Assembly: GCF_000759025.1 (NCBI RefSeq)
Contig: NZ_JPOS01000004.1
Coordinates: 62,001 to 126,000 of the forward strand
Origin: Phaeodactylibacter xiamenensis
Lineage (GTDB): Bacteria; Bacteroidota; Bacteroidia; Chitinophagales; Saprospiraceae
Direction of reading: 5' to 3'
DNA length: 64,000 nucleotides
The notes below the pieces were generated by a model that saw nothing but the letters and a program-made list of their open reading frames with translations, did no database searches and had not been told where the DNA came from. Positions 24,965 to 35,859 of this stretch are shown in pieces. Position 1 is the stretch's first letter, and each line of letters starts with the position of its first letter. Made by a program: the position numbers and the translations under genes.

Positions 24965-26449
24965 TTAATCCACAATTACTTTCCCTACTTGCAACAGGGC
25001 TCCGGACTGGCTTATCTTATACAAGTAAAAGCCTGAAGGGAGCTGAGCCGTGTCCCAAACATACTGCCCGTTTATTTCTGCCTGATGCACCAATGCACCG
25101 CTTTCATTATAAATTTCCAGGCGGGCCGATCCTGAAGGTGCCTTGCTTTCAAAAGACAAGGGCCCACGTACAGGATTGGGATAGACCCGATAGGAGTTTT
25201 GTGGCTTGGCCCATGCTGAAGCACTCACTACCTCTCCAATCGGGTTGGTTCTGACCAGCCATGTTGTTGATGTAGCGCTTGGGCCAGAGAAAGGTGTGTA
25301 TTGCCCGAGCAGCAGGAATGAGGCATCTGGCAGTTGTTTTATGTCTTCAGGGTAACAATACCCCAACAAGTCGCTGTAGATTTCTACTGTAGTTGCCTGC
25401 CCTAAAGAGTCGGTAACGATGAGCACAGGATGGTCATAGTAGAACGCAGTCAGCATAGCAAAGCCCCCTTCCATAGTACGTACCAGGGGACCAGCCCAGG
25501 TGCCTATGCCTCCCAGCTCATCATAGTACTCTTCTTCCCAAAGTATTGTTCCGGAAGTATCTATTTTCACTAACGCTGGCACAATGCTATTGTACGCTTC
25601 GTAGGAGATACCCACCGACACCATCAGGTTCCCATCTGCCGTAGTAACCATGTCTTCGGGCTGGGCGTCACCACCCATATCATAGACCTCTGACCACAAC
25701 AAATCGCCCGTTGCCGAGAACTTGGTCACCATCAAATCAAAAACATACAAATGATAACGGGCCTGGCTCAGCACGTAAATATTGCCTGAATCATCGTGAA
25801 CAATGGAAAGGGGAAAAAGCTGGTCCTCATCTTCACCTTCAATAAGCTTGATATCGCGCTCCCACAACAGTTCACCGTCACTTGCTATACGCCATACGCC
25901 ACCGTACCAGGGATAATTTGACGAATTCACATCTATTTTCCTCCCGCACAGTGTGTAGCCCCCCAGGGGCGAAGGGGCAATTGAAATGCCCCATTCATGG
26001 GCCCGGTTATAGTCAAGCACTCCGTAGGTCTTTATCCAGTTCAGTTCTCCAGTTTTGGTGTGGCTGGCAATAAATGCATCCTTAGAATCAGAACTTAGAA
26101 AAGGGTACTCCTTTGAAATACTACCTATCGAAAGTACCTCATCGTTATGCACTATTCCACTGTGTAAATTTATAGAGTTGGTATCAGAAAGGTTGAAATT
26201 GTAACGCTCTATTAACTGCCCGCTACCCATATCGATGCGCCGGTTAAAGAGCGACCATTTGGCGCTCAGGGTATCAATCAGCTTACCTGATGTTAAAATA
26301 ACTGCTTCTTCACTGCTGATGGGTAAGATAACGCCCGGCCCTTCTGCTTCTATTCCATTGTTGTCATACTCCATGGCGTAATTGATCTGCCCGCTAAGGT
26401 TCATACAGGAAACCAGTACGCTGAAAAAGCTTAGGAAAATATGTTTCAT
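24965..26449 (-). CDS. T9SS-secreted beta-propeller-like protein (type A sorting domain)
   Basis: A 494-residue secreted protein. The signal peptide is MKHIFLSFFSVLVSCMNLSGQ. The body has repeated strand-rich units of the kind found in propeller or quinoprotein-like folds (SPLGGYTLCGRKIDVN, DDSGNIYVLSQARYHLYVFD, EDMVTTADGNLMVSVG). The last about 75 residues form a T9SS type A sorting domain (YRVYPNPVRGPLSFE ... LPSGFYLYKISQSG). I chose the ATG at 26449 because the signal peptide starts there; the longer frame is read from the hairpin upstream. The function is unknown. It lies 66 bp downstream of the split tyrosinase gene. Confidence 0.88.
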   Translation of the reverse strand: MKHIFLSFFSVLVSCMNLSGQINYAMEYDNNGIEAEGPGVILPISSEEAVILTSGKLIDTLSAKWSLFNRRIDMGSGQLIERYNFNLSDTNSINLHSGIVHNDEVLSIGSISKEYPFLSSDSKDAFIASHTKTGELNWIKTYGVLDYNRAHEWGISIAPSPLGGYTLCGRKIDVNSSNYPWYGGVWRIASDGELLWERDIKLIEGEDEDQLFPLSIVHDDSGNIYVLSQARYHLYVFDLMVTKFSATGDLLWSEVYDMGGDAQPEDMVTTADGNLMVSVGISYEAYNSIVPALVKIDTSGTILWEEEYYDELGGIGTWAGPLVRTMEGGFAMLTAFYYDHPVLIVTDSLGQATTVEIYSDLLGYCYPEDIKQLPDASFLLLGQYTPFSGPSATSTTWLVRTNPIGEVVSASAWAKPQNSYRVYPNPVRGPLSFESKAPSGSARLEIYNESGALVHQAEINGQYVWDTAQLPSGFYLYKISQSGALLQVGKVIVD

Positions 26450-26468
26450 GGTTGGTGCAATATTGAAA

Positions 26469-26500
26469 CATGGCAAGCGCATAGCGCTGCGCTTGCCATG
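26469..26500. terminator. Perfect 13-bp hairpin between the tyrosinase and propeller genes
   Basis: CATGGCAAGCGCA and TGCGCTTGCCATG pair perfectly around the six-base loop TAGCGC. It follows the tyrosinase stop by 14 bp on the minus strand. The following bases are only modestly T-rich, so it may be a weak terminator or an mRNA-stabilising hairpin. Confidence 0.5.
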
Positions 26501-26514
26501 AGGTAATTTTAATT

Positions 26515-27708
26515 TTAAAACTTAGAGATCACTCTGGTGTAAAGCTCTCCGTCCAGAAAAAACTGAATAGCATGGTTTCCAGTGCTCCAGCCAGAGGTAC
26601 TAACCGTCAGTTGCACTGTTTGACCGCCAGCCAGCGTACCCGGTGACCATAATACAGTGGTCATATTTTTAGCTAAATCTACATGTCGTATTTCCAGCGT
26701 CTTCCCTGTACCGCTATCACTTTGTATTTCTATTTCCACAGGGCTGAAACCACCAACCGGATTAGGCCATACTTCGATATCATAGTCACAGAGTATTCGA
26801 TATCCCAATGCGGGGTCTGTGTAATGGTGAGGAATGGAAAGACTTACTAGCTTTGCATCAAAACTACATTCATTTTCAGCACTAACCAATAGGGTAAAAA
26901 CATCTCCTCCTTCCAGGTTATTGAGCCGCCAGGCTTCATCAATACACCCATTGGCATCAAATGGAAGGCTAACGGTATTGCCCAATTGGTCTTCTACATT
27001 GATCACACTAAGATTACTGAAGTCGCCTGTACCACTAAAATCAAGACAAGCTGTAAATTCGCTTTGCTGAGCCTCTTCAGCAACCGAAATATGGCCACAG
27101 CCCTCACACAGGTCTTGATAACAATAATACAGCTCATCTATGTAAGCATGGAATAGCCAGAAAATAGCAGCAGCGGAAGCTGTTTGACTATGAACCATAG
27201 CACCTCCCAGCGCTCCATGCACTATATTATGACTTGCATAATCATCATTATTCGCACGAATATACCCGGCAAAGGCGTCAATATCGCTGAACTGCGAGCA
27301 GGTCATGTCATCCACCTGATACATACCATAGGTATTAGCCGGGATTTGGTTAACGGGCATCCCAAATTGTGTACCTCCGGCAGCGTATTGATAAGGCGTA
27401 TTATAGACTTCAGAAACCATAGCCGACTCGGCCAAAAACTCATCAGGTACTGATGTATTGGGATTCCAACTGGGTAGCGGGACGTAGTCGTGGTAGCCTT
27501 GTTCAAGCAGGTAATCTTCGAGCCCACGGATATAGTCCCGGTGCCAGCTTAGGAAAAGCTCAGTATCGCTATGCCAGGTAATGGAGACTGAGGGATCCCC
27601 GTAGGCGGAATGCGCAGCTACTACTTCGTACTTTAAGGAAGGGTGCCTAAGAGTAACTTCGGGGTGATTGGGGTCATACCCGGACCACTCTTCCGATGTA
27701 AGGTAATC
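26515..27708 (-). pseudogene. Secreted tyrosinase-type copper protein, 3' part (interrupted by IS66-like element)
   Basis: This encodes about the last 400 residues of a type-3 copper (tyrosinase/polyphenol oxidase) protein. Copper-ligand regions are recognisable: WHSDTELFLSWHRDYIRGLE (CuA) and HNIVHGALGG with FWLFHAYIDELYYCY (CuB). The end (EVWPNPVGGFSPVEIE ... YTRVISKF) resembles a T9SS type A sorting domain. The gene's 5' part is at 29192-29472 on the far side of the insertion. Joining the halves over one copy of the 8-bp duplication gives one frame of 488 residues (LIIDY/LTSEEW). As it stands this part lacks the signal peptide, and a frame opening inside the IS (27771) would give an unexported product. 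Confidence 0.88.
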
Positions 27709-29191
27709 GTAACTATTTAGGTGTGGGTTCCTGCGGCAGCGTAGCTGCGAAGGAACGACTCGCCCCGCCAAGCGTTGAGCAACTCTTCATAGGCAGACAA
27801 GCCGTGCTTTTTTGCCGTGCTGCAAAAGCTTTTGATCCTTGCATAGTGCCGCGCACCCTGTAGGGTACGGAAGCAGCCACTGACTTTTAGCTTCGTTTTT
27901 AACGGGCGGATATCACGTTCGGCCAGGTTATTAGTGAAGGGCACTTCGTGCTCCCGCGTGAACCTCAGTACTTCTTCTTCGTATCGTTCCAGCCTTTCGA
28001 GCAGGTTCCTCCCTTTTGTTTTCTTCGCCCGGCCTTTTGGGCGGAGTTCGGGCGGCGGCTCTTCACGGCTGGCTTCTTTTAAGATTTGCCGGTAGCGGGA
28101 CAGGACCGTTTTATATTTTTTAGCCGGCAGCACTGAGCTCCCGCCACTGCTAAATTCGTAAGCGTACATTAACAAACTGTGCATCTTGTCAGCCCACTGG
28201 CGCTCATGGTTTTCAGCTAGGCCTCTAAGCTCGCGCAGCAAGTGCGCCCCACAAAGCGCATGGCGGGCGTTTTCCAAGCCAAAATAGCTTGCCCAGCAGT
28301 CGTGCACCAGTGTGCCTGTATAGTTTTGAGCTATGCTTTCGTCGCTGTGCAGCGCCTGTGCGCCTCTTTTCTCATGCACAAACAGATAAGTAAACAGGCC
28401 ACAGACAAAATTATGTGCCCAGTGCAGTTTGCCTGCCACCCGGGCACCGCTTTCGTCAGCATGCGCTACGGGGCTGGACAATGCCTGCTCTTTGATAACC
28501 GCCTCATCATCGGCCAGCTTCCCGTACATGCGCTGTACGGAAGTGGATACTGTATTCTCATTAAGCTCATACCCTGTCAGGCTGGCAAAGAGCTCCCCTA
28601 TGCGCCCTACGGGCATGCTTTGCTCCACATTCAGCAGGCTGACTAAGGCATGTACCCTGTCGCCGTATTGTACGGGGGCTGGCACGCCGGACGGGAAGCT
28701 GCCTGTATGCTGCTCGCCACAGCAAGGGCAATGTTTGACCTCCAGGCGGTGCTCTTCTATTTGCAAAAGCTTCGGGGGGAGGTCAAAAACCTGGCGGCGC
28801 TCTAAGCTTATGCTTGGCACAGTGCTTTCCAGGTTCTGGCCGCAGCTGCATTTTTGCTCAGCTACCGGGTGGACAACAAGGCGGTCTGCTGCAGACGGGG
28901 CGACCATCTCAAGCGTCTTCCCCTTATGCCCAGACTGGCCTCCCTTCTTGCCGCCTTTCTTGCGCGGGAAAGCAGGGGCCTTCTTCAGCCCATCGCTGCT
29001 CGGAGGCCGCGACGAAGTCCGGCTGTTGGCTTTCAGCTGTGCTTCCAGCTCTGCAATACGAGCCAGCGCTGCTTCCAGCAGTGATTCCAGCTTTGCTATT
29101 TGCTCAGCTTGTTGCGCTATGATCTCGTCCTTGTTCACCTGTGCTAGTTCGCTATTTTTTCGCTATTTTGCAAATTGACCTAAATAGTTAC
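27709..29191 (-). mobile_element. IS66-like insertion sequence (1,483 bp, transposase only)
   Basis: The ends are perfect 14-bp inverted repeats GTAACTATTTAGGT (27709-27722, and reversed at 29178-29191), beginning GTAA as is usual in IS66. The target duplication AGGTAATC (8 bp, the normal IS66 size) is at 27701-27708 and 29192-29199. Only a TnpC-type transposase is present; the tnpA/tnpB helper genes of typical IS66 are absent, as in the ISBst12-type branch. The stop codon of the transposase lies within the left inverted repeat. The element splits a tyrosinase gene. Confidence 0.95.
27717..29138 (-). CDS. IS66-family transposase (TnpC type)
   Basis: A 473-residue transposase. In order: an N-terminal leucine-zipper-like coiled coil (residues 5-38), a basic linker (FPRKKGGKKGGQSGHKGK), a zinc-finger-like region (CSCG at 97-100 and CPCCG at 137-141), the DDE catalytic domain with D228 (HADESG), D280 (VHDCWASYF) and E407 (NNLAERDIRPLK), and a C-terminal IS66 tail. 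It looks intact with no stop or frameshift, so the element may still be active. It lacks neighbouring tnpA and tnpB. Confidence 0.96.
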   Translation of the reverse strand: MNKDEIIAQQAEQIAKLESLLEAALARIAELEAQLKANSRTSSRPPSSDGLKKAPAFPRKKGGKKGGQSGHKGKTLEMVAPSAADRLVVHPVAEQKCSCGQNLESTVPSISLERRQVFDLPPKLLQIEEHRLEVKHCPCCGEQHTGSFPSGVPAPVQYGDRVHALVSLLNVEQSMPVGRIGELFASLTGYELNENTVSTSVQRMYGKLADDEAVIKEQALSSPVAHADESGARVAGKLHWAHNFVCGLFTYLFVHEKRGAQALHSDESIAQNYTGTLVHDCWASYFGLENARHALCGAHLLRELRGLAENHERQWADKMHSLLMYAYEFSSGGSSVLPAKKYKTVLSRYRQILKEASREEPPPELRPKGRAKKTKGRNLLERLERYEEEVLRFTREHEVPFTNNLAERDIRPLKTKLKVSGCFRTLQGARHYARIKSFCSTAKKHGLSAYEELLNAWRGESFLRSYAAAGTHT

Positions 29192-29472
29192 AGGTAATCA
29201 ATGATAAGACCGGCTAACTCTGCCCTTTCTTCCGGCTCAAGCTCATAGATATCCTTGCGATAACCATCACAAACACTATTCGTGTTCAAAGACTGTACCA
29301 CCGTTGTTGAGTAGCTGAAATAATCAGAATAATCTATGAAGGATGGAGAACTTTGGGCTCTAGCATTCGTCAAAACAAAGCTGGCCAGAATGATGCCCAT
29401 TAACTGAGGCTTAAGCCATTGTGTGTGTGTGTAAACAACACTTTTGCACCACTGCTGTAATGTAATTTTCAT
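29192..29472 (-). pseudogene. Secreted tyrosinase-type protein, 5' part (interrupted)
   Basis: The first about 93 residues of the tyrosinase gene. There is a long n-region, then a hydrophobic signal core (LMGIILASFVLTNARAQ), then VCDGYRKDIYELEPEERAELAGLIIDY, the helix that precedes the first copper site in this family. The frame stops two codons after the target duplication because the IS end supplies TAA. A (TG)6T tract at 29420-29432 lies in the n-region. With its partner at 26515-27708 it forms one gene. Confidence 0.82.
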
Positions 29473-32096: not shown

Positions 32097-32291
32097 AGGC
32101 TTTTTTTATGGCTTAGACGCTTGGGTGTGGTAAGGGTTTAAATATGAAAGGCCCGGATGTGAGATTGTGAATTCTGGTCTGATACTCCTGTATCCTATCT
32201 TTAGTCTTTATGTCTCTTGCGTAGCAGATAAGCATAGGAAATACCAAACAAGGTGCTTTGTTGCCTGACTGGCAGCTCAGTGAGATAAGGG

Positions 32292-32594
32292 TCAGGGCCG
32301 CATATCATCTGGATTCTGGCGCGTATCAAAGATGTCCGTAACAAAAATGAAAGGTGCTGAAACCAGGTAAATTAATTTGTAAAGCTTTGCTACAATAATG
32401 TATCGATGCCCCTGCCCCAATTCCTTCAGGTAATCTTCTTCCTGACCAAGCTCAGGATTTTGGCTTAACAAAGCAGACTTCCGGCTAATTTCCTGCTTCA
32501 GCTTTGCGAAGTGAGACCGGTTGCCTTTCTTTTTGTAGTAATCGTCAATTTGGCTAAGCCGGCGCTGAGCTGGCTTTGTGATCCTTACTTTCAT
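32292..32594 (-). CDS. RelE/ParE-family toxin
   Basis: A 100-residue basic protein of the ParE/RelE fold: KVRITKPAQRRLSQIDDYYKKKG at the start, LKQEISRKSALLSQNPELGQEEDYLKELGQGHRYIIVAKLYKLIYLV and a C-terminal FVTDIFDTRQNP. Toxins of this kind cut mRNA on the ribosome (RelE) or block gyrase (ParE); which applies cannot be read here. It sits 2 bp after the antitoxin gene, as expected for a toxin-antitoxin operon. Confidence 0.85.
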   Translation of the reverse strand: MKVRITKPAQRRLSQIDDYYKKKGNRSHFAKLKQEISRKSALLSQNPELGQEEDYLKELGQGHRYIIVAKLYKLIYLVSAPFIFVTDIFDTRQNPDDMRP

Positions 32595-32596
32595 AA

Positions 32597-32833
32597 TCAG
32601 TCTCCCAACTCCGCAAGCGCATCATCTATGTCGACATGCTCCCCCTTTGCAATAGCTTGATTAGACTCCTCTGCTCGTGCTACCAGTTCTTTTTTTGTCA
32701 TTGGCTTGAGCGCAGCTTCATAAGCACTTGCTTCATTGTCTTCTTTTACCCGAAGTAAGTGCTGTACGACCTCAGCGTCTTGTAGTCGTGCCAACCATTC
32801 GATAAGCTGTAATTTTTCTGCCTGTAAATTCAT
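32597..32833 (-). CDS. Antitoxin of the RelE/ParE-type pair
   Basis: A 78-residue acidic protein: helix-rich NLQAEKLQLIEWLARLQDAEVV, then MTKKELVARAEESNQAIAKGEHVDIDDALAEL, a pattern common in Bacteroidota antitoxins of ParE/RelE pairs, whose C-terminus wraps the toxin. The ATG at 32833 is preferred to an in-frame upstream start. It is directly upstream of the toxin and would autoregulate the operon. Confidence 0.8.
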   Translation of the reverse strand: MNLQAEKLQLIEWLARLQDAEVVQHLLRVKEDNEASAYEAALKPMTKKELVARAEESNQAIAKGEHVDIDDALAELGD

Positions 32834-32911
32834 TCTAAGCCATTTTTCAATTATCAAAGATAACGGATTTATGAATTAATCCGTTCACGCAGCCACTTAG
32901 TCTCAATATAC

Positions 32912-34370: not shown

Positions 34371-34416
34371 TTTAAACCTTTGCAGTGCCCAGCCCGTTTT
34401 ACTACAAAACCCTGGC

Positions 34417-35859
34417 ATGCAAAGACTTATATTTGCAACACTATTTCTCTGCTTACTTTTCGCCACCTGTTCACCCGAAGAGCAAGTGCAGGCAGTGAAC
34501 CCCGACGCTGCATTTCCGATGGTAGACCGGGACCTGGAAAACATACAGGAGTCTGGCGTACTTAGAGCTATTACGGTCTACAGCGAAACCAGCTATTTCC
34601 TCTACCGGGGGCAGCCGATGGGTTTTGAATACGAGCTGCTGACCAGACTGGCGGACCACCTCGGCGTACGCCTGGAAATTGTGCCCGCTCATGACCTGGA
34701 CGAACTTATTAATATGCTCAACCGGGGGGAAGGGGACCTCATCGCCCACGGGCTGACCATCACCAAACCCCGAAAGCAATACATTGACTTTACCAACTAC
34801 CTCTACCTCACCAAACAAGTGCTGGTACAGCGCAAGCCTGAGAACTGGCGTAACTGGAAACTCCACGAAATAGAACGGACGCTGGTTTCTGACCCTATTG
34901 AGCTGATTGAAGATACGGTTTCCGTCCGGCTGGCCTCTGCTTACCACGACCGGCTGAAAAACCTGGAGCAGGAAATTGGCGGTGATATCTACATCGACAC
35001 CGTATCCGGGGATTTATCTACGGGCAGGATCATCAAGAAAGTCGTGGAAGGCGAGTTGGATTACACCGTTGCCGATGATAATATTGCAGAGATCAACAGT
35101 GCCTACTACCCTATCCTTGACGTTTCCACGCCGATCAGCTTTTCGCAACGTGCGGCCTGGGCAGTACGCAAAAACGCCCCAAATTTGCGCCAAGCCCTCA
35201 ACACCTGGATTGAAGAAATGCGGCAGAAGACCGATTACTATGTGATCTACAATAAGTACTTTGAGAATGAGCGTGCATTCCGGGCCCGCATCGAAAGCGA
35301 TTTTTTTAGCGAAGCGGGCGGGAAAATCAGCCGGTACGACAGCATCGTCAAACAATTTGCGGACTCTATCAATTGGGACTGGCGCTTTCTAAGCGCCCTG
35401 ATTTATCAGGAATCCCAGTTTAATCCATCGGCTACATCCTGGGCCAAAGCCAAAGGATTGATGCAACTGATGCCTGCCACTGCGCGGGAGCTGGGCGTCT
35501 CAGACAGAACGAACCCTGAGGATAACCTTGAGGCGGGTACGGTCTACCTTGAGGAACTCTACAACCGCTGGGAGAGCATACCTGACAGCGTACAGCGGGT
35601 GAAGTTCGCCCTGGCCTCCTATAATTGTGGCTATCAGCATGTCGTGGACGCTCAGGATTTGGCGGAGAAGTACGGCAAAGACCCAGGCGTCTGGGATGAA
35701 CAGGTCGAGGTGTTTGTCAAGCGCCTGTCCTATCCCAAGTATTACAATGACCCGGTGGTGGACTATGGCTACGTTCGGGGCATTGAGCCGGTCACCTATG
35801 TCGATCAGATTTTCGAGCGGTTTGAGCACTATCAGCAGCTGATCCCGGAAGAATCCTAG
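34417..35859 (+). CDS. MltF-like lipoprotein: solute-binding domain plus lytic transglycosylase
   Basis: A 480-residue outer-membrane lipoprotein with lipobox LFATC (Cys18). Residues about 45-290 are a family 3 solute-binding domain (LRAITVYSETSYFLYRGQPMGFEYEL, GLTITKPRKQYIDFT). Residues about 315-470 are an SLT lysozyme-like domain with catalytic E332 (LIYQESQFNP) and AKGLMQLMPATAREL, as in MltF. The enzyme would cut peptidoglycan to a 1,6-anhydro product, with the N-terminal domain regulating it by binding muropeptides. Its stop codon TAG lies exactly at the left end of a MITE-like element. Confidence 0.92.
   Translation: MQRLIFATLFLCLLFATCSPEEQVQAVNPDAAFPMVDRDLENIQESGVLRAITVYSETSYFLYRGQPMGFEYELLTRLADHLGVRLEIVPAHDLDELINMLNRGEGDLIAHGLTITKPRKQYIDFTNYLYLTKQVLVQRKPENWRNWKLHEIERTLVSDPIELIEDTVSVRLASAYHDRLKNLEQEIGGDIYIDTVSGDLSTGRIIKKVVEGELDYTVADDNIAEINSAYYPILDVSTPISFSQRAAWAVRKNAPNLRQALNTWIEEMRQKTDYYVIYNKYFENERAFRARIESDFFSEAGGKISRYDSIVKQFADSINWDWRFLSALIYQESQFNPSATSWAKAKGLMQLMPATARELGVSDRTNPEDNLEAGTVYLEELYNRWESIPDSVQRVKFALASYNCGYQHVVDAQDLAEKYGKDPGVWDEQVEVFVKRLSYPKYYNDPVVDYGYVRGIEPVTYVDQIFERFEHYQQLIPEES

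Follow-up and report, generated by a model that had tools for sequence, protein, structure and literature searches.

A recently active insertion sequence of the IS66 family, single-ORF and ISBst12-like, appears to have inactivated an accessory tyrosinase-type gene in Phaeodactylibacter xiamenensis, apparently a marine member of the Saprospiraceae, a reading to which we assign a probability of a little over nine in ten. The element transposed into the gene in one event, duplicating 8 bp of target, and the region bearing six copper ligands is now cut off from both the predicted export signal and the initial stretch of the enzyme domain, so that no intact secreted enzyme can come from the split gene and its activity would presumably be lost. 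The split gene is in all likelihood a pseudogene of recent origin, and the locus is best accounted for by the simple inactivation of a tyrosinase that was acquired and probably secreted; the event is real and recent, and ordinary in kind. IS66-type elements are a common sort of bacterial mobile DNA.

The inserted element and the interrupted frame

The window (the whole 64-kb stretch analyzed, G000:C4:62001-126000; GC content 50.6%) belongs to a draft genome, referred to hereafter as G000, of 7,866,110 bases in 164 contigs. Features of the locus are collected in Table 1.

Table 1. Coordinates, in window numbering, of the insertion sequence and of the gene parts flanking it
Feature	Position	Strand	Basis or remark
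Tyrosinase gene, 5' part: export-signal-like hydrophobic N-terminus and first conserved enzyme-domain segment	29192..29472	-	homologue alignment
Tyrosinase gene, 3' part: six predicted copper-ligand histidines and C-terminal region	26515..27708	-	Pfam PF00264, 58.8 bits (cut-off 22.6)
IS66-family insertion sequence, single ORF, ISBst12-like	27709..29191	-	1,483 bp; genome comparison
IS left end, terminal inverted repeat	27709..27722		14 bp
IS right end, terminal inverted repeat	29178..29191		14 bp
Target-site duplication copy 1, AGGTAATC	27701..27708		abuts IS left end
Target-site duplication copy 2, AGGTAATC	29192..29199		abuts IS right end
IS66-family transposase (473 aa), begins with GTG and lacks internal stops	27717..29138	-	NF033517, PF03050

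An earlier note, made from the letters of this DNA, had described perfect ends and a flanking duplication for the element, and all of these features were found: the ends (GTAACTATTTAGGT and ACCTAAATAGTTAC) start with GTAA, are identical at 14/14 bases and diverge beyond, and the same octamer abuts both borders. This octamer occurs five times on the + strand of the window, and identical octamers would flank the element by chance with a probability of 4^-8 (~1.5e-5). The IS66-like character that the note gave the element is borne out by its transposase, which exceeds the curated cut-offs of NCBIfam NF033517 (281.2 bits, cut-off 180) and Pfam PF03050 (141.6 bits), as well as those of the Pfam families zf-IS66 (30.1 bits) and DUF6444 (51.1 bits). 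Outside the transposase ORF the element has just 8 and 53 bp, with neither tnpA nor tnpB; because the transposase fills all but these two stretches, the layout is of the single-ORF type and, judged by sequence, the element is a member of the ISBst12 group of the IS66 family (the single-ORF call uses family matches for the transposase strand).

Scripted removal of the element and one duplication copy gives 1,467 bp open in a single frame (488 codons plus stop), reproducing the in-frame join of 488 residues that had been claimed; the other two frames of the joined strand contain 23 and 51 stops. The ORF of the 5' part (29188-29472, 94 codons, of which ~91 precede the duplication) has no Pfam or NCBIfam match when searched alone, and the frame of the 3' part is open back into the element as far as a TTG at 27771. 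Taken together, the sequence data support the interruption of one tyrosinase-family gene by an IS66-family element, and annotators would do well to treat the two neighboring partial genes and the transposase as one broken tyrosinase.

Homologues, copper ligands and export

ORFs no shorter than 120 codons, drawn from loci L025-L083, were searched for homologues of the joined protein; at E<=1e-4 there are 26 distinct homologous ORFs (28 rows, two of which are one ORF fetched twice). The alignment spans the cut within one ORF in 16 of the 26, begins after the cut in nine and covers the C-terminal region only in one. Because 16/26 ORFs align across the cut, the reading of the locus as two naturally separate genes is rejected; the earlier note had named homologues with separate parts as the finding that would speak against a single split gene, and in these 16 the parts are not so arranged. 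The best homologue (L083, contig JAGFJD010000138.1 of a metagenome-assembled Phaeodactylibacter sp.) aligns through the cut over 259 columns, at 58% identity; it differs from the window gene in being an uninterrupted ORF with a longer C-terminal part, and it is also retrieved by the N-terminal part alone (46% identity to residues 147-205 of L083, E 1.7e-9). When aligned by MAFFT with the window gene, 12 homologues (L083, L077, L074, L080, L025, L026, L063, L064, L069, L078, L072 and L027) all extend to either side of the cut, and most carry a segment like R-x-D-I...F-x-x-x-E-R-x-x-L-x-x-L-I just N-terminal of it.

These alignments also bear on an assembly artefact, in which the assembler would have set a copy of the repeat between flanks that do not belong to it. 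The draft state of the genome would allow for this, in that some contigs are broken inside other copies of the element (C2/C3, C10/C11 and C104), but the two flanks share the octamer, form one frame when joined and together match intact homologues over the junction, making such an error exceedingly improbable.

Five histidines (H124, H147, H251, H255 and H278, joined numbering) are conserved in 13/13 aligned rows and a sixth, H137, in 9/13; the six are predicted, by analogy, to be copper ligands. All fall after the cut (at approximately residue 92), and the C-terminal part therefore keeps the ligands and loses the export signal and first domain segment. The retention of all six predicted ligands, with a frame open to TTG 27771 and a transposase read in the same direction, leads to a further reading, in which the C-terminal part is made from that TTG or by transposase read-through, as a cytoplasmic product with some activity. 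We consider this very improbable: the TTG is out of frame with the transposase and has no known initiation signal, and the product would be without the signal and the first domain segment, which 16/26 homologous ORFs carry within the ORF.

To assign the family, profile A1, built from an alignment of 23 sequences, was searched against solved structures. It matches the tyrosinases of Streptomyces (1wx2, E 2.8e-30) and Bacillus megaterium (3nm8, E 3.1e-27) and also molluscan hemocyanins; the top per-chain scores belong to multi-domain hemocyanins, and the single-domain hemocyanin 1js8 reaches 79 bits vs 109-112 bits for the best single-domain tyrosinases. An AlphaFold model of the C-terminal part has a mean pLDDT of 58 and is confident for part of the enzyme core only; a Foldseek search with this low-confidence model ranks tyrosinases first (E 1e-3 at best, TM ~0.3), weakly backing the family. 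Sequence comparison, chiefly the profile search, supports a tyrosinase-type (type-3 copper) enzyme as the gene product, and by the same likeness its substrate would be a phenol. Classical tyrosinases have a His before the third CuB histidine (HH); this residue is Trp, Phe or Tyr in the window gene and 11/12 relatives, and His in L077. These relatives make up a divergent tyrosinase group in the bacterial family of the host, often on long multi-domain ORFs.

Residues 24-40 comprise a hydrophobic stretch with an A-x-A-like site (judged by eye), suggesting that the ancestral enzyme was probably secreted. The more specific claim of type IX secretion (T9SS), approached in four ways, was not confirmed: C-terminal segments of 111 and 161 residues have no NCBIfam or Pfam match, sorting domains included, at E<=10, and a tail profile of our own is borderline. 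This profile (seeded on two neighbors and L083, iterated over 271 ORF tails, 34 accepted) scores the tyrosinase tail at E 0.021, below the inclusion limit and at rank 37 of 62 listed, a value that is generous because one of the seed sequences is related to the protein being tested. The tail of L083 itself matches the T9SS type A sorting domain TIGR04183 (25.1 bits, cut-off 23) and falls below the cut-off of PF18962 (25.8 bits, cut-off 27). BLASTP of the tyrosinase tail against that of a neighbor aligns 29 residues around PNPV (E 3e-4, as a single comparison), and the AlphaFold model places strands, at low confidence, at the C-terminal end. A divergent T9SS sorting domain in the tyrosinase tail is plausible.

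Copies of the element and distribution of the gene

The element has 13 matches in G000, eight of them full length: five are 100% identical (the tyrosinase copy included), two 99% and one 96%. An 8-bp duplication sits at the same offset in 7/8 full copies, that in the tyrosinase gene among them; the exception (L006, G000:C90:411039-412521) has perhaps undergone recombination between copies. Contig ends interrupt two additional copies, with the same 8-mer on both flanks (CAAAACAG for C2/C3 and CATTAAAC for C10/C11; L009-L012), such that each contig pair probably adjoins through one copy of the element. Since four of the eight full copies (L001, L003, L005, which is the tyrosinase copy, and L008) sit within frames that stay open for 100 codons or more to either side, the element has probably struck several genes. 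For L003, both flanks adjoin with a single target copy (88% identity) in the congener G004, an empty site, and they give adjacent matches in G005 too (from match positions only; a direct alignment did not reproduce this site, probably because the G005 matches lie on the opposite strand). The flanks of L001 have no match in either genome. The element has been recently active, the tyrosinase gene being one of several gene insertions. That insertion looks recent, in keeping with the earlier note, because both gene parts are otherwise open and five copies of the element are identical.

Among the congeners, no transposase relative was found at E<=0.001 in G003, G004 or G005; G001 has a partial relative (49%), and G002 a 21-residue identical transposase piece corresponding to the first 75 bp of the element, 100% identical, at a contig end (L100, G002:C35). 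This last match means that the element is not private to G000 and occurs in more than one species of the genus. Six more IS66-family transposases in G000 (on C93, C122, C123, C109, C101 and C126) are just 39-40% identical to that of the element and, by sequence, represent a second IS66 lineage.

The interrupted gene is, on comparative sequence evidence, accessory, since the closest congener, G004, is without it at a collinear site: on its contig L107 (~90% DNA identity) window position 26484 joins 29531 with few bases between, and neither tyrosinase nor element is present. In G001 the histidine ammonia-lyase-like and epimerase-like genes that flank the locus in the window lie ~40 bp apart. With collections of one genome per species, the C-terminal half has matches in 8/147 genomes (G000 included) and in 0/5 congeneric genomes (completeness 61-99%), and a Pfam search gives some tyrosinase match in 68/398 genomes of the family; tyrosinases are hence common but patchy within it. 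G000 itself has no other PF00264 gene, the two stretches matched being both of the same frame. A search of G004 with the N-terminal half gave no match, but was run without a positive control and shows little. Third-position GC is 0.415 and 0.447 in the two tyrosinase parts, 0.504 in the neighbor at 24965-26482 and 0.67-0.69 in three other neighbors. Gain of the gene in this lineage is a simpler reading than its loss in G004.

An uninterrupted tyrosinase copy was sought with the C-terminal half in the five congeneric genomes, and none was found; congeners without the gene are therefore unfit as the enzyme-positive comparison proposed in the earlier note. G002 has a Pfam tyrosinase hit that is weak (21.6 bits, under the cut-off) and contains two stops; it was dismissed as spurious, its similarity to either half being no better than E 1.3. 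None of the papers covered by our literature search mentions both Phaeodactylibacter xiamenensis and tyrosinase.

Two other differences from G004 were seen in the window. Positions 32142-32904 are absent from G004, whose contig L107 has the two sides immediately next to each other (3557/3558); this apparent small accessory cassette contains a ParE-family toxin gene (32292-32594, PF05016 33.3 bits) and, upstream of it, a small partner ORF (32597-32857) with no Pfam match. Positions 34374-35763 are likewise missing (L107 5025 to 5031), a gap that removes most of an ORF (34417-35859) matching SBP_bac_3 and transglycosylase SLT.

Comparison with known systems

The excerpts available of PMC11946415 give IS66 at large an 8-bp target duplication and inverted ends of 20-30 bp. 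The closer reference is ISDge4 of Deinococcus geothermalis, presented in excerpts of PMC12898284 as an ISBst12-group element whose ends are GTGACTACTCAGCA/GTAACTGCTCAGCA, with 8-bp repeats and a transposase of 449 aa; its insertion knocked out phytoene desaturase, a gene with a visible product, and its transposition is described there as copy-and-paste.

This mode of transposition bears directly on the phenotype switch that the earlier note had proposed, taken here as a reversible one: the element would exit precisely at a useful frequency, and the population would alternate between enzyme-positive and enzyme-negative states. In its favor stand an unbroken transposase frame and a perfect duplication, and precise excision is described, in the excerpted part of a review (PMC8944449), for another family (IS5 at fucPIK), making rare loss of the element conceivable. 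Against this, the related ISDge4 (end GTAACTGCTCAGCA, 8-bp repeat) is described in the PMC12898284 excerpts as copy-and-paste, a mode that leaves the donor copy in place, and for this reason an intact transposase is no argument for the reversion that the note had drawn from it; moreover, the element lies at many sites, the tyrosinase site being one of eight full copies, with no sign of a dedicated switch. We therefore leave the switch proposal unsupported and judge it highly improbable. Just as doubtful is a slow on/off form of it, for a secreted phenol-oxidizing enzyme in an alga-associated bacterium, in which cells free of the element persist or re-arise; were a switch real, the two states would be set apart by how melanin forms or phenols are cross-linked on the surface of the alga.

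Simple inactivation, the reading we prefer, has little significance beyond this genome. It shows a recently active IS66-family element in Phaeodactylibacter xiamenensis and contributes a tyrosinase gene of patchy distribution, absent from the closest congener; a strain carrying the gene intact, were one to be found, would form with this one a natural knock-out pair for the function of secreted tyrosinase in such a bacterium.

Compared with solved bacterial tyrosinases (Streptomyces 1wx2 and 6j2u; Bacillus megaterium 3nm8 and 4p6r), the window gene appears by sequence to share the type-3 copper domain, the match being far weaker by single sequence than by profile; it differs in its extra C-terminal region and in being broken here. 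The resemblance of the element to ISDge4, as that element is set out in the excerpts of PMC12898284, is close: both have one transposase ORF (449 aa in ISDge4, 473 aa here), similar ends (GTAACTGCTCAGCA in ISDge4, GTAACTATTTAGGT here) and 8-bp direct repeats, and in both a gene is knocked out by insertion (phytoene desaturase there and, presumably, a tyrosinase-family gene here). At 14 bp the ends fall short of the 20-30 bp quoted for IS66 in general and are like the 14 bp of ISDge4, from which the present element is set apart by the perfect match of its ends, its Bacteroidota host and its tyrosinase-family target.
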